Positions 30,151-34,114 of a stretch of 64,000 nucleotides of DNA are shown piece after piece. The position numbers and the translations under genes were made by a program. Position 1 is the stretch's first letter, and the number at the start of each line of letters is the position of its first letter. Below the pieces are notes generated by a model. That model saw only the letters and a list, made by a program, of their open reading frames with translations, ran no database searches and was not told the DNA's origin. The stretch covers positions 434,001 to 498,000 of the forward strand of contig MKVF01000006.1 in assembly GCA_001899145.1 (NCBI GenBank). Reading direction: 5' to 3'. Source of the DNA: Flavobacteriia bacterium 40-80 (lineage in GTDB: Bacteria; Bacteroidota; Bacteroidia; Flavobacteriales_D; Crocinitomicaceae).

Positions 30151-31200
30151 ATGCTGAACATTTCAAAACATATCAAATTGTTCAGTCCCGGTTTTTCACC
30201 GGGGATAAGATCTGTTTTTTTTATTTTTAACCTTCTATTGCCTTTCTGTACAACAGCACAGCAAAACCTTGTACCTAACGGAAGTTTTGAGGAATATAAC
30301 TGGTGCCCTAATAGTACGGATGGTTATTATATCAATGCCTGTAAATATTGGACAATGCCAACATTAGGCACGTCCGATTATTTCAATGCATGTAGTACAG
30401 AATATGATGCATCTCTACAAACCTATATGTTTAGTGTGCCGGATAATCGGCTTGGCTATCAATATGCAAGGACAGGAACTGCGTATGCTGGTTTTTCATA
30501 CACTGAAGGCAATGATCCACTGTTTGTTGGAGACCAAACTTTTACAGAATATATACAGGTAAAGCTTAAACAGAGTTTAGAGCAAGGGCAGATTTATGTG
30601 TTAAAATTTTATGTAAGCAATAATACAAATTTTATTTGTGGAAATACTGTCGGAGCTTATTTTTCTCCAACTGAAATACAAATTCCAACTTATTATAATG
30701 TTGATTTAATTCCTGATTTTCAAAGTAATCTGTCTGTATTTTTTTGTGATTCCACAAAATGGTTTGAACAATCCTATCAATTTGTAGCCAAAGGCACGGA
30801 ACAATATCTTATAATAGGAGTTTTTACAAGACTATATGAATCACAAACGAGTGATTCCGATGGAAATATCATTTCCGGCCTTGGACAATTTGGTGCTAAT
30901 CAATACTTATATATTGATGATGTGTCGCTGACAGAAGTAGATTTTAGTGTGCCGAATGTATTTACGCCTAATAACGACGGGAAGAACGAGGAATATAAAA
31001 TAGAAGGATTACCTAATAATTTTTCATTCACTATTCTTAACCGCTGGGGCGAAAAGATATTTCAGACAGATAAGGCAAATCAGGAGTTCTGGGATGGTAC
31101 ATTTACTGGAAAAAGATGTCCGGACGGAGTTTACTTCTATATACTCGAAAGCGTAAAAGACAATTTAAAAAAAACAGGTTTTATTCATTTGGTAAGATAA
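30151..31200 (+). CDS. secreted protein with T9SS type B (CHU_C) sorting domain
   Basis: A 349-residue exported protein: N-terminal signal (hydrophobic VFFIFNLLLPFCTTAQ, about 22-37), then NLVPNGSFEEYNWCP, the start of a jelly-roll-like carbohydrate-binding-type region with several cysteines, and from about residue 267 the gliding-motility-associated C-terminal domain (VPNVFTPNNDGKNEEYKI, ILNRWGEKIF, CPDGVYFYIL). Such domains send cargo through the type IX system. The ligand is unknown. It is 13 bases upstream of the next T9SS cargo gene, so the two are probably cotranscribed. Confidence 0.88.
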   Translation: MLNISKHIKLFSPGFSPGIRSVFFIFNLLLPFCTTAQQNLVPNGSFEEYNWCPNSTDGYYINACKYWTMPTLGTSDYFNACSTEYDASLQTYMFSVPDNRLGYQYARTGTAYAGFSYTEGNDPLFVGDQTFTEYIQVKLKQSLEQGQIYVLKFYVSNNTNFICGNTVGAYFSPTEIQIPTYYNVDLIPDFQSNLSVFFCDSTKWFEQSYQFVAKGTEQYLIIGVFTRLYESQTSDSDGNIISGLGQFGANQYLYIDDVSLTEVDFSVPNVFTPNNDGKNEEYKIEGLPNNFSFTILNRWGEKIFQTDKANQEFWDGTFTGKRCPDGVYFYILESVKDNLKKTGFIHLVR

Positions 31201-31213
31201 AATTTAAGTTATT

Positions 31214-34114
31214 ATGAAAAATTTTATCAAGCGGGTAATAACTTTTGCAGTCATTGGCTATGCTTATCAATCAGCCTTTAGTCAGGCAACAAATGGGACT
31301 GTACTCAATAATAATTATAATTCCACTTGGTATCTTGGTTGGAGCAATAATGGTGTCAATCCATTATTATTCAAAACCAACGCCATCAACCGTTCCAAAT
31401 TCAACGGCATTGTCAACTACAATATCAGTGGTTATAACGGTGCAAGAAACGGCTATATGCTGGTTGGTAATGACAACAATTCCATTTCTGCGGGTAACCC
31501 TAATATCTACACCCAAAAAGGAGCATTTTCGATGCTGCATCTGAACGGAACAGGCTCACAGTATCAGGAATTTGGCTATCGTCCGTGGATGAATGCTGGT
31601 GTAACTTTTACCGGAAACCGAGATTTGAGCTACGTCGGTTTGCGGCAGGTAGGCACAGCTGAAGATTTTACGGAAATGACTATTATGTGGTCTGATAATT
31701 CTGGAGGCGGTGCCGGACCTGATGATATGGCATTTCGCTTTACAGGAGACGGCAATGGAAATACAAACATTTCGTCCAATCTCCAAACAAATGATGATTT
31801 AGACGGATTGCACATTGCGCGGTTCGCGCCGACGGGAGAATTTGGTCTGGGAAATACTTTTGGGATCAACGCTCCCGGAACTCCCGCAAATCTCTATGTC
31901 CGACCTGCCTCACTGGGCCATTACAGCCTGAGCGACCTGCGTTCGGTATGGCAGCAATTTACTAACAGAGATGGGACAACAGGCACCGGTACAGGCGAAA
32001 CAGCCAACGACGGATTACGGTTTGGTATTATTGGCAACGCCAATACGAACATCAACGGGACAGCGGCACTGTATAACCAGGAAAACAGAGCGTTACTTTT
32101 TTCAACTAATGCTAATACAAATACGATTAATATTACAGGAGGAGCTACTAACGAAAGAATGCGTCTGATGTCTGTCGGTACGCCTACGAATTTAGCCGGA
32201 GGCGGATTCGGCGTGTTTAATCCTGCCGGCATAAACACTAATTTTACCCGAATGGCAATCAGTCACAATCCGGGCAATCCGATCACCCGGCCGTTGAGCT
32301 TACTGCACCTGGGATATAATACAGGAGCTGTCGCTATAACCCCCGGAACAGACGGTTGGCGGCCGTGGATGGACATTGGTATTTTTACTACTAACGGAAC
32401 AGACAACGTTTATTTGGGCTTAAAAGATGAAGGAGGTCCGCTTGGCGACAGGCAAGATGCAGTATTAAGCTGGGGAGATAACCAGGTATCAGGGCTTCCT
32501 CCCGGAAATGGTCCCGATAACTTCAGAATGATTTTCACATCAACGACCGCTCCAAGCGGAGGAGGCACGCCTCCTGCAACAGGTGTGAATGGTCTGGAAG
32601 GGATGCGTATGACTCCCACCACAACAGCAGGAGTATTCACAGGTATCGGTGGCGACCCTACCGCTAACCAGTATGGACCTGCCGGAACCAGCATTAATCC
32701 GACAGCTACGCTGGAGGTCAACTCGTGGGGAGTAACTACTGCTCCGGGTGGCAGCTCAGGATTACGTTTCACAAATCTGAATACCACTTCACCAACGACA
32801 GCCAACCCGGGAACAGGTGTGTTGAGCGTTAATGCCAACGGCGATGTGATTTATGTTCCGGGCGGTGGCAGCACTTTCGGTAACGCCTGCGGCGCAACAC
32901 CAAATCCATTAACAACGGATATAGAGATTCCCCTGAATCATCACAACCTGCACTTTACAGGAGTAGGTAACAGTAACACAGATATTGTCGCTATCGGCTG
33001 GAATTGCGGTCTTAATCCTTTATTGAATGCTTACGGAAAATTAGACGTTGTTCAGCTCGGAACGACATCAGGTATATTTACCCCAACACCATACAGTATC
33101 GCGGGCAGATTTACCAGCGCGCCACAAACATCTCCTACAATTGCATCTATAGGAATACAGGCACAAGCATTAAATTCGCCGAACACTAATGCCGGTGTAT
33201 ATTCAATCGCAAGTGGAAGCGGTATGGCCAATTACGGAATTTTTTCCACTGCCTCCGGAGCTACCAGTAATTATGCAGGATATTTCAATGGAAATGTCAT
33301 ACGAACAGGAACCGATAATTTCACTTCAGATTCCACATTGAAGCAAAACATCCAGCCGATTACAGACGCGAGAGGTATCATCAGACAACTTTTACCGAAA
33401 ACGTATGAATTCAATCACAGCGTACATCCGAACATGGAACTACCAAACGGTAAGCAATGGGGCTTACTTTCCCAGCAAGTGGCAACTATTTTACCGGAAC
33501 TGGTAACAGAAATTACTCATCCTGCACAATACGACAGCTTAGGAAATGAAGAACATGCTTCGTTTACCTACAAAGCCTTGAATTACCAAGCATTTACAAG
33601 TATTTTGATACAAGCTGTAAAAGAACAGGATACGTCTATTGATTCATTAAAAGCGACAAATGATTCACTTGTCATTGTAAACAATAAACAAGACAGCATT
33701 ATCAACAACCTCAACGACCGTCTTTCCCGATTGGAAAATTGTCTGAGCGGCATTTTGCCGGTTTTGTGCCAGATGAGCCATAATTCCATTCAGCAAAACA
33801 CACCAGAAGTGCAACAGGCTATCCGTTCACAACTGTCTGTTTACCTGTCAAACAGAGAAGCAATTATCTTAGACCAGAACGTTCCTAATCCGTTCGCGGA
33901 ACAGACGACAATCAACTTCTCCATTCCCGAAACGGTTCAGAAAGCGCAAATCCATTTCTACGATGGAACGGGTAAATTGCTAAAAGTCGTGGATATCAGA
34001 GAGCGTGGCTTAGGCAGCATCACCGTTTTCGGTTCAGACCTGTCTGCCGGAACGTATATGTACACGCTTGTCGCTGATGGTGTGAATGTCGCAACGAAGA
34101 AGATGGTAAAATAA
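31214..34114 (+). CDS. T9SS type A cargo with an S74 intramolecular-chaperone (tail-fibre) domain
   Basis: After a signal peptide the 966-residue protein is a long, low-complexity Gly/Thr/Asn-rich beta region with repeated blocks (RPWMNAGVTF and RPWMDIGIFT; DNSGGGAGPDDMAFRFTG and DNQVSGLPPGNGPDNFRMIF). A Peptidase_S74 chaperone domain begins near residue 705 (FTSDSTLKQNIQPITDARG, KQWGLLSQQVATILPELV), followed by a coiled coil (about 800-835, SIDSLKATNDSL). A type A sorting domain starts near 885 (LDQNVPNPFAEQTTINF). S74 domains normally trimerise phage spikes and cleave themselves; in this secreted protein it suggests a trimeric surface fibre. Its middle is GC-richer than its neighbours. Confidence 0.88.
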   Translation: MKNFIKRVITFAVIGYAYQSAFSQATNGTVLNNNYNSTWYLGWSNNGVNPLLFKTNAINRSKFNGIVNYNISGYNGARNGYMLVGNDNNSISAGNPNIYTQKGAFSMLHLNGTGSQYQEFGYRPWMNAGVTFTGNRDLSYVGLRQVGTAEDFTEMTIMWSDNSGGGAGPDDMAFRFTGDGNGNTNISSNLQTNDDLDGLHIARFAPTGEFGLGNTFGINAPGTPANLYVRPASLGHYSLSDLRSVWQQFTNRDGTTGTGTGETANDGLRFGIIGNANTNINGTAALYNQENRALLFSTNANTNTINITGGATNERMRLMSVGTPTNLAGGGFGVFNPAGINTNFTRMAISHNPGNPITRPLSLLHLGYNTGAVAITPGTDGWRPWMDIGIFTTNGTDNVYLGLKDEGGPLGDRQDAVLSWGDNQVSGLPPGNGPDNFRMIFTSTTAPSGGGTPPATGVNGLEGMRMTPTTTAGVFTGIGGDPTANQYGPAGTSINPTATLEVNSWGVTTAPGGSSGLRFTNLNTTSPTTANPGTGVLSVNANGDVIYVPGGGSTFGNACGATPNPLTTDIEIPLNHHNLHFTGVGNSNTDIVAIGWNCGLNPLLNAYGKLDVVQLGTTSGIFTPTPYSIAGRFTSAPQTSPTIASIGIQAQALNSPNTNAGVYSIASGSGMANYGIFSTASGATSNYAGYFNGNVIRTGTDNFTSDSTLKQNIQPITDARGIIRQLLPKTYEFNHSVHPNMELPNGKQWGLLSQQVATILPELVTEITHPAQYDSLGNEEHASFTYKALNYQAFTSILIQAVKEQDTSIDSLKATNDSLVIVNNKQDSIINNLNDRLSRLENCLSGILPVLCQMSHNSIQQNTPEVQQAIRSQLSVYLSNREAIILDQNVPNPFAEQTTINFSIPETVQKAQIHFYDGTGKLLKVVDIRERGLGSITVFGSDLSAGTYMYTLVADGVNVATKKMVK

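Follow-up and report, generated by a model that had tools for sequence, protein, structure and literature searches.

Self-cutting S74 domains are found in phage tailspikes and fibres, such as endoNF of K1F with its endosialidase chaperone (structure 3gw6), in which a beta-rich region is followed by the S74 domain, with its SDxxxK motif, and by a helical stem. A domain of the same type, the ICA domain, precedes the membrane anchor in MYRF (also MyRF), a eukaryotic transcription factor that is freed from the membrane (as described in PMC8326128 and PMC3742443), and the trimeric Bdellovibrio fibre Bd3182, of the MAT family, is described as being completed by cleavage of an SDxxxK S74 domain (PMC10769870). 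In the type IX secretion system (T9SS), cargo of type A (gingipains and the RemZ type) has a type A C-terminal domain (CTD), the sorting tag, at its extreme C-terminus, and the PorU sortase is described as removing it (PMC9143113). The subject of this analysis is a 64,000-nt stretch of the genome of Flavobacteriia bacterium 40-80 (contig MKVF01000006.1, positions 434,001 to 498,000 of the forward strand; hereafter the window) and a gene in it, at 31214..34114, whose protein has an S74 domain followed by a type A sorting tag. S74 self-cutting fibres and PorU-removed T9SS tags are each known; what is new is their combination, with a mechanism that can be tested, rather than a new kind of system. 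Among the open-access papers listed by the literature searches, judged by terms, titles and the opening of their abstracts, none deals with S74 in cargo of the T9SS. To judge from sequence conservation, the sorting tag downstream has not relaxed the S74 protease, and its catalytic dyad is not disabled. Newly found is a conserved partner gene immediately upstream of S74 genes with a tag; partner and S74 fibre form a conserved two-gene unit.

The protein shares with the phage fibres the S74 profile, the SDxxxK motif, the helical stem and the preceding beta-rich region, but it is encoded on a bacterial chromosome, carries a T9SS tag after S74 and has no conserved counterpart of Arg897 of endoNF. 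With MYRF it shares a self-cutting domain placed between the part to be released and a localisation element, and MYRF is described as cutting without an upstream Arg (PMC8326128), of which no conserved counterpart is seen here; the released part is a transcription factor in the one and a putative secreted fibre in the other. Since MYRF has its ICA domain before a membrane anchor, an S74 domain followed by another element is not unusual in itself. The Bdellovibrio fibre is likewise bacterial; MAT S74 proteins end in S74, and the sections of PMC10769870 drawn on here report neither a T9SS tag nor a type B partner for them. The type A CTD at the extreme C-terminus is common to this protein and other type A cargo, but here a self-cutting domain precedes the tag. 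The features of the gene, in window coordinates, are these:

31214..34114, + strand: S74 fibre gene, type A T9SS cargo by its profile matches; one open reading frame (ORF) with an ATG start, 966 amino acids
31214..31285, + strand: residues 1-24, probably an N-terminal signal peptide (judged by eye); AlphaFold2 (AF2) predicts a helix at 2-20
31286..33325, + strand: residues 25-704, the beta-rich part of the fibre, in which an imperfect repeat occurs (low-confidence model, repeat alignment)
33326..33343, + strand: SDxxxK motif with Ser705 (33326-33328), Asp706 and Lys710 (33341-33343), from sequence and alignment
33326..33508, + strand: Peptidase_S74 core, residues 705-765 (Pfam; fold match to 7dc3 and 3gw6)
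33584..33781, + strand: single predicted long helix, residues 791-856 (AF2), a putative S74 trimer stem by analogy with MyRF
33740..33769, + strand: Cys843/Cys852, a cysteine pair where the helix ends (sequence, linker counts)
33884..34111, + strand: residues 891-966, C-terminal sorting domain of T9SS type A (NCBIfam; confident beta-rich model)

The initial annotation had placed an S74 domain between a repetitive beta region and a T9SS sorting domain, with the catalytic Ser and Lys expected near residues 705-710, and this architecture is borne out. Peptidase_S74 (PF13884) matches residues 705-765 with 39.7 bits against a Pfam cut-off of 22 (E = 6e-10), and the type A sorting domain TIGR04183 matches residues 891-966 with 25.3 bits (NCBIfam cut-off 23); among the relatives, at E <= 0.01, TIGR04183 is found in 32 of 35 aligned proteins and PF18962, a second sorting-domain profile, in 23. 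The motif S705-D-S-T-L-K710, at the expected place, is the SDxxxK dyad of cleaving S74 domains, and the predicted cut would fall between Thr704 and Ser705. The S74 domain is supported by profile score, catalytic motif and fold, and the refuting case of an S74 match without profile support is excluded. The internal repeat (..RPWM..) is imperfect, aligning nt 31580 with nt 32360 at 76% over 21 nt, about 260 residues apart, and its first copy also aligns with the second in relatives. Among PHROG families, seven for tail fibres or baseplates are matched by the S74 end, the best with E 3.9e-18 over residues 519-819, and the N-terminus, by inspection by eye only, is basic and hydrophobic.

Structure prediction (AF2, full-length, with 35 sequences; fold matches by Foldseek) gives predicted local distance difference test (pLDDT) values of ~75-85 for the S74 core and ~85-92 for the C-terminal beta domain from residue 900; residues 791-856 form one helix, in which confidence drops toward the end. 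The first three Foldseek matches are chains of the MyRF ICA domain 7dc3 (E 1.3e-4 to 6.2e-4), in which S587/K592 are placed like S705/K710; the endoNF chaperone 3gw6 follows at rank 11 (E 2.3e-3), with unrelated chains in between. The single fibre sequence found no match among solved structures; the 35-protein profile matched 6f45, the distal subunit of a long tail fibre (E 1.7e-10), as well as 7dc3 (6e-4). A viral fold search with the full-length AF2 model gave TM-scores near 0.1 and is uninformative beyond S74. Trimerisation of MyRF is described as being driven by a coiled coil of helices that follows the S74 core (PMC8326128), and residues 25-704 would form a putative trimeric beta fibre. 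In the MAT family a ~130-residue beta-rich domain is described directly after the signal peptide (PMC10769870); profile positions 46-214 match the 'cell wall surface anchor family protein' 8ojn_C at E 0.21, a weak match that is not evidence by itself.

What carries the argument is the retention of the catalytic dyad. S74 domains were drawn from a phylum sample (S74 in 107 of 395 genomes), from the family of the window's genome (130 of 200 genomes match the fibre protein, some through the tag alone) and from a named genome collection (where the S74 region has at least 446 relatives, the best 80 used), the first two fetched only in part. Of the resulting 280 distinct Bacteroidota domains, 132 are followed by a T9SS tag, 136 belong to closed untagged ORFs and 12 to ORFs cut by the end of the locus; Ser and Lys are both present in 128, 134 and 12 of these, respectively. 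Greedy clustering at 60% identity leaves 92 tagged domains, 90 of them with the dyad. Within the tagged domains, conservation is 0.992 at both S705 and K710 (129 domains aligned there), behind G750 alone and against a column median of 0.446, and residue 731, which by our own placement corresponds to Tyr615 of the MyRF cutting hole, is aromatic in 130 of 132. Fetching loci with PF13884 introduces a bias toward intact motifs; hence a set fetched with a dyad-free pattern (about residues 748-757) was counted apart. Its 75 domains, from the genome_contigs set and not already counted among the G loci, have the dyad in 57 of the 58 tagged cases and in all 17 untagged ones, the lone tagged exception being a truncated ORF. 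The account in PMC8326128 has MyRF S587/K592, equivalent to endoNF S911/K916, needed for the cut before Ser, and in Bdellovibrio Bd3182 the S782A change, at the SDxxxK Ser, is described as blocking self-cleavage and abolishing the bdelloplast location (PMC10769870).

Because Ser and Lys are kept in 128 of 132 tagged domains, the protease does not appear to have been relaxed; the S74 of tagged cargoes is most likely active, and since nearly all relatives examined retain the dyad, it is probable that the fibre rids itself of its tag. The initial annotation had left a fork, with cleavage either disabled or taking place at the surface so as to free the fibre; the disabled branch falls with these counts, and the self-cleaving branch is the favoured one. 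The proposal that the dyad is lost because a tag lies downstream was likewise rejected on the 128/132 and 57/58 counts.

The exceptions are few. Among tagged domains, L084 and L227 lie in broken ORFs and L190 is a partial match in a 219-residue ORF, the alignment falling short of the motif; the remaining one, in a 249-residue ORF of L131, has a degenerate dyad (E/R). The untagged exceptions are A/A in L142 and P/K in L172. Genomes of family f28 (L126, the 803-residue ORF of L131, L145 and L174) keep Ser and Lys with Asp replaced by Ser or Thr, and some of these Asp-replaced S74 proteins carry a T9SS tag. Loss of the dyad was considered for L126, L145 and L174 and rejected: the sequence is S-S/T-xxx-K, and Asp alone differs.

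The initial annotation treated the gene alone, which was incomplete, as the upstream neighbour shows:

30151..31200, + strand: partner gene, 349 amino acids, ending 13 nt before the fibre gene (ORFs, profiles, neighbour counts)
30262..30936, + strand: partner N-domain, residues 38-262, a jelly-roll resembling carbohydrate-binding modules (CBM) CBM4 and CBM16, by predicted fold
30946..31191, + strand: T9SS type B sorting domain (CHU_C) of the partner, residues 266-347 (Pfam, NCBIfam)

The type B tag is matched by CHU_C (E 4.5e-21) and by TIGR04131; the model of the N-domain resembles CBM4, CBM16, gingipain adhesin modules and other beta-sandwich proteins (whole-protein pLDDT 83.5). Adjacency was counted on ORFs rather than annotated genes, taking the immediate upstream neighbour and requiring at least 900 nt upstream. 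In 80 loci of the named genomes there are 66 S74 genes with a tag, 50 of them countable, and 17 without, 14 countable. A partner homologue lies immediately upstream in 35 of the 50 tagged cases and in two of the 14 untagged ones (Fisher p 3.9e-4, uncorrected for relatedness, and with untagged genes that belong to other lineages and are thus an imperfect control); an earlier count by single-sequence search gave 34 of 50 and one of 14. Of the 15 misses, L220, L224, L241, L255, L274, L277 and L282 have a partner N-domain homologue at a greater distance upstream or in a call that overlaps or is split, L207 matches the type B tag only, and the remaining seven are without an assignable homologue. 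The gaps between the two genes are mostly a few nt, and the arrangement recurs in loci of the family genomes, which partly overlap the named ones, and at L180, from a different family of the same order. As a basis for judging chance adjacency, the bacterium's own genome has three homologues of the partner N-domain; the full partner protein has 42 matches there, most of them confined to the type B tag. A second copy of the N-domain (G000:C6:208580-209344, 32% identity) lies in a 1082-residue ORF away from the genome's S74 gene, which is the sole S74 match at E <= 0.001 in 3.5 Mb.

Type B cargo (PG1035, SprB), which works with PorP/SprF and which the partner resembles in its type B CTD, is described in PMC9143113 as thought to be bound to the surface via PorP-like barrels, with the tag of PG1035 apparently left uncut. 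Because type B cargo would be anchored in this way, the partner is the best candidate anchor for a shed fibre. The partner differs from such cargo in being encoded beside the fibre gene, with no PorP-family match of the own genome in the window. The machinery itself is at hand: SprA (2395 bits) and PorU (1206 bits) both score above their cut-offs in the genome, as do nine PorP-family proteins, none of which lies inside the window (none on contig C6).

The mechanism that we favour, with a little more confidence than doubt, is that the exported fibre is cleaved by its own S74 domain at or outside the outer membrane and is then released or held by the partner. T9SS cargo is described as binding PorV and SprA by its CTD, with CTD-first exit as that paper's inference (PMC10994853). 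By analogy, the fibre would be exported by Sec through its signal peptide, its tag would dock on PorV in SprA, and the protein would leave tag-first, as reported for other T9SS cargo; because T9SS cargo leaves in this way, cleavage at or after export is the likeliest timing. If chains were exported singly, with one tag each, assembly of the S74 trimer and the cut would both take place at the outer membrane or beyond it; cleavage of MyRF is described as being activated in trimers only (PMC8326128). Three subunits would assemble through S74, and the trimer would cut each chain before Ser705 (the dyad is observed, the cutting presumed), parting a mature fibre (about residues 25-704) from a piece made up of S74, stem and tag. 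PorU would act, if at all, on that discarded piece, and the tagless mature fibre would be either released or held on the cell by the partner. Since in this order export precedes trimer and trimer precedes cut, the conflict between cleavage and sorting is removed. Such a cargo is predicted to remove its own sorting tag only once its trimer has folded. Quality control would thereby be coupled to release at the surface, and Bacteroidota would have a route by which phage-type fibres are turned into surface organs. A fuller version, in which type A export, an S74 cut triggered by trimerisation in place of a sortase, and a CBM-like type B partner held on a PorP-like barrel make up one surface-fibre system, is put forward tentatively, as something short of an even prospect; if true, the S74 cut would be a folding checkpoint at the surface and tandem S74 domains (below) a two-step version of it.

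Several observations weigh against this reading. The second sorting-domain profile, PF18962, scores 25.3 bits, 1.7 bits short of its Pfam cut-off of 27. The AF2 model is poor for residues 25-704, with scattered strands at low confidence, and the fold match is a modest one, with 8fk7, a pilus chain that is unrelated, in fourth place (E 6.6e-4) ahead of 3gw6. When the count starts from the partner, a fibre homologue detectable by BLAST follows only 17 of 33 ORFs (at least 400 nt downstream required, 30 loci from the best matches). The S74 profile behind the counts contains the motif, so that dyad-less domains may be under-detected. No counterpart of endoNF Arg897 is conserved within 30 residues upstream (128 domains); MyRF is described as cleaving without an upstream basic residue (PMC8326128), and because it does so an upstream Arg is not treated here as defining for S74. 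A fibre that cut itself in the periplasm ahead of export would be left stranded, and a role in folding could account for the conservation of Ser and Lys.

The alternative that survives best, although we regard it as rather unlikely, is that self-cutting frees a soluble secreted fibre and that the CBM-like type B neighbour is an independent surface adhesin, merely co-expressed. The dyad does predict the loss of the sole known anchor, and RemA of Flavobacterium johnsoniae is reported both at the surface and in spent medium (PMC12618676); the pair is conserved at numerous loci, usually only a few nt apart, which suggests a joint function instead. Somewhat less probable is a fibre in which S74 serves for folding and trimerisation and stays uncut in vivo, PorU anchoring the fibre via its tag as with other type A cargo. 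The position of S74 before the tag would then entail no conflict, but Ser and Lys are near-invariant and the pocket residue 731 is almost always aromatic, and a domain kept as chaperone only should by inference have lost the dyad in some lineages at such divergence.

Less probable again is a cut in the periplasm, as the trimer folds, after which the threaded chains would be towed non-covalently through the T9SS by the trimer of S74, stem and tag, perhaps locked by cysteines. In MyRF the chain awaiting its cut is described as passing through the ring of the neighbouring subunit (PMC8326128), and at least two Cys are present in 101 of the 132 linkers between S74 and tag, spaced by 9 in 61, by 1 in 27 and by 7 in 12; that linker cysteines tie stems together is speculation. 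Against towing, the pieces of phage S74 proteins separate after cutting. Moreover, three tags per cargo would need an unusual transport, the cargo being described as CTD-first on PorV (PMC10994853). As an observation in its own right, a motif ENCLSxILPxLC is conserved between S74 stem and sorting tag (33740-33769 in the window, and in relatives).

A prophage or phage remnant, to which the matches of the S74 end to phage tail-fibre families might point, is highly improbable and was rejected on the neighbouring genes, for the gene has a T9SS tag, its top phage match has 28.7% identity over residues 475-819 with no phage record covered to 80%, and none of the seven flanking ORFs scanned with Pfam (nitroreductase, enoyl reductase, metallo-beta-lactamase (MBL) fold, DUF423, RecN/SMC-like, DUF4835, DFP flavoprotein) is of a phage structural family.

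In the phylum sample the tag is present in 20 of 141 fetched S74 ORFs, in 12 of 74 genomes and seven families; S74 with a tag is therefore a recurrent architecture and not a one-off fusion. It is common enough for study, and the conserved partner makes anchoring directly testable. Plasmid records with related S74 ends annotate them as 'tail fiber domain-containing protein'.

Of 278 S74 ORF sequences, in which some genes appear at two lengths, 19 distinct ORFs have two S74 domains. Four have well-separated copies, and 15 are direct tandems (L041, L052, L056, L073, L074, L076, L080, L088, L089, L092, L099, L268, L279, L280 and L084), in which the first copy is directly continuous with the second. 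Both SDxxxK motifs are present in 14 of the 15, L084 being broken by a stop. A T9SS tag mostly follows; L080 and L279 end before the tag, and L092 is without one.

At L069 (G451:C1:1911800-1919400), G453:C325 and G442:C43, partner genes and short ORFs for the fibre N-terminus (~154-275 amino acids) form arrays, which sit before or beside a longer partner-fibre pair and could be degenerate cassettes or a short form. The fibre gene is broken by an in-frame stop or a change of frame in L063, L066, L070, L084, L224 and L241, several of them in draft assemblies; decay, error and phase variation are all three possible. Outside the window's family, G126 (L031, L190) has three ORFs with S74 and tag, one of them a 219-residue fragment.

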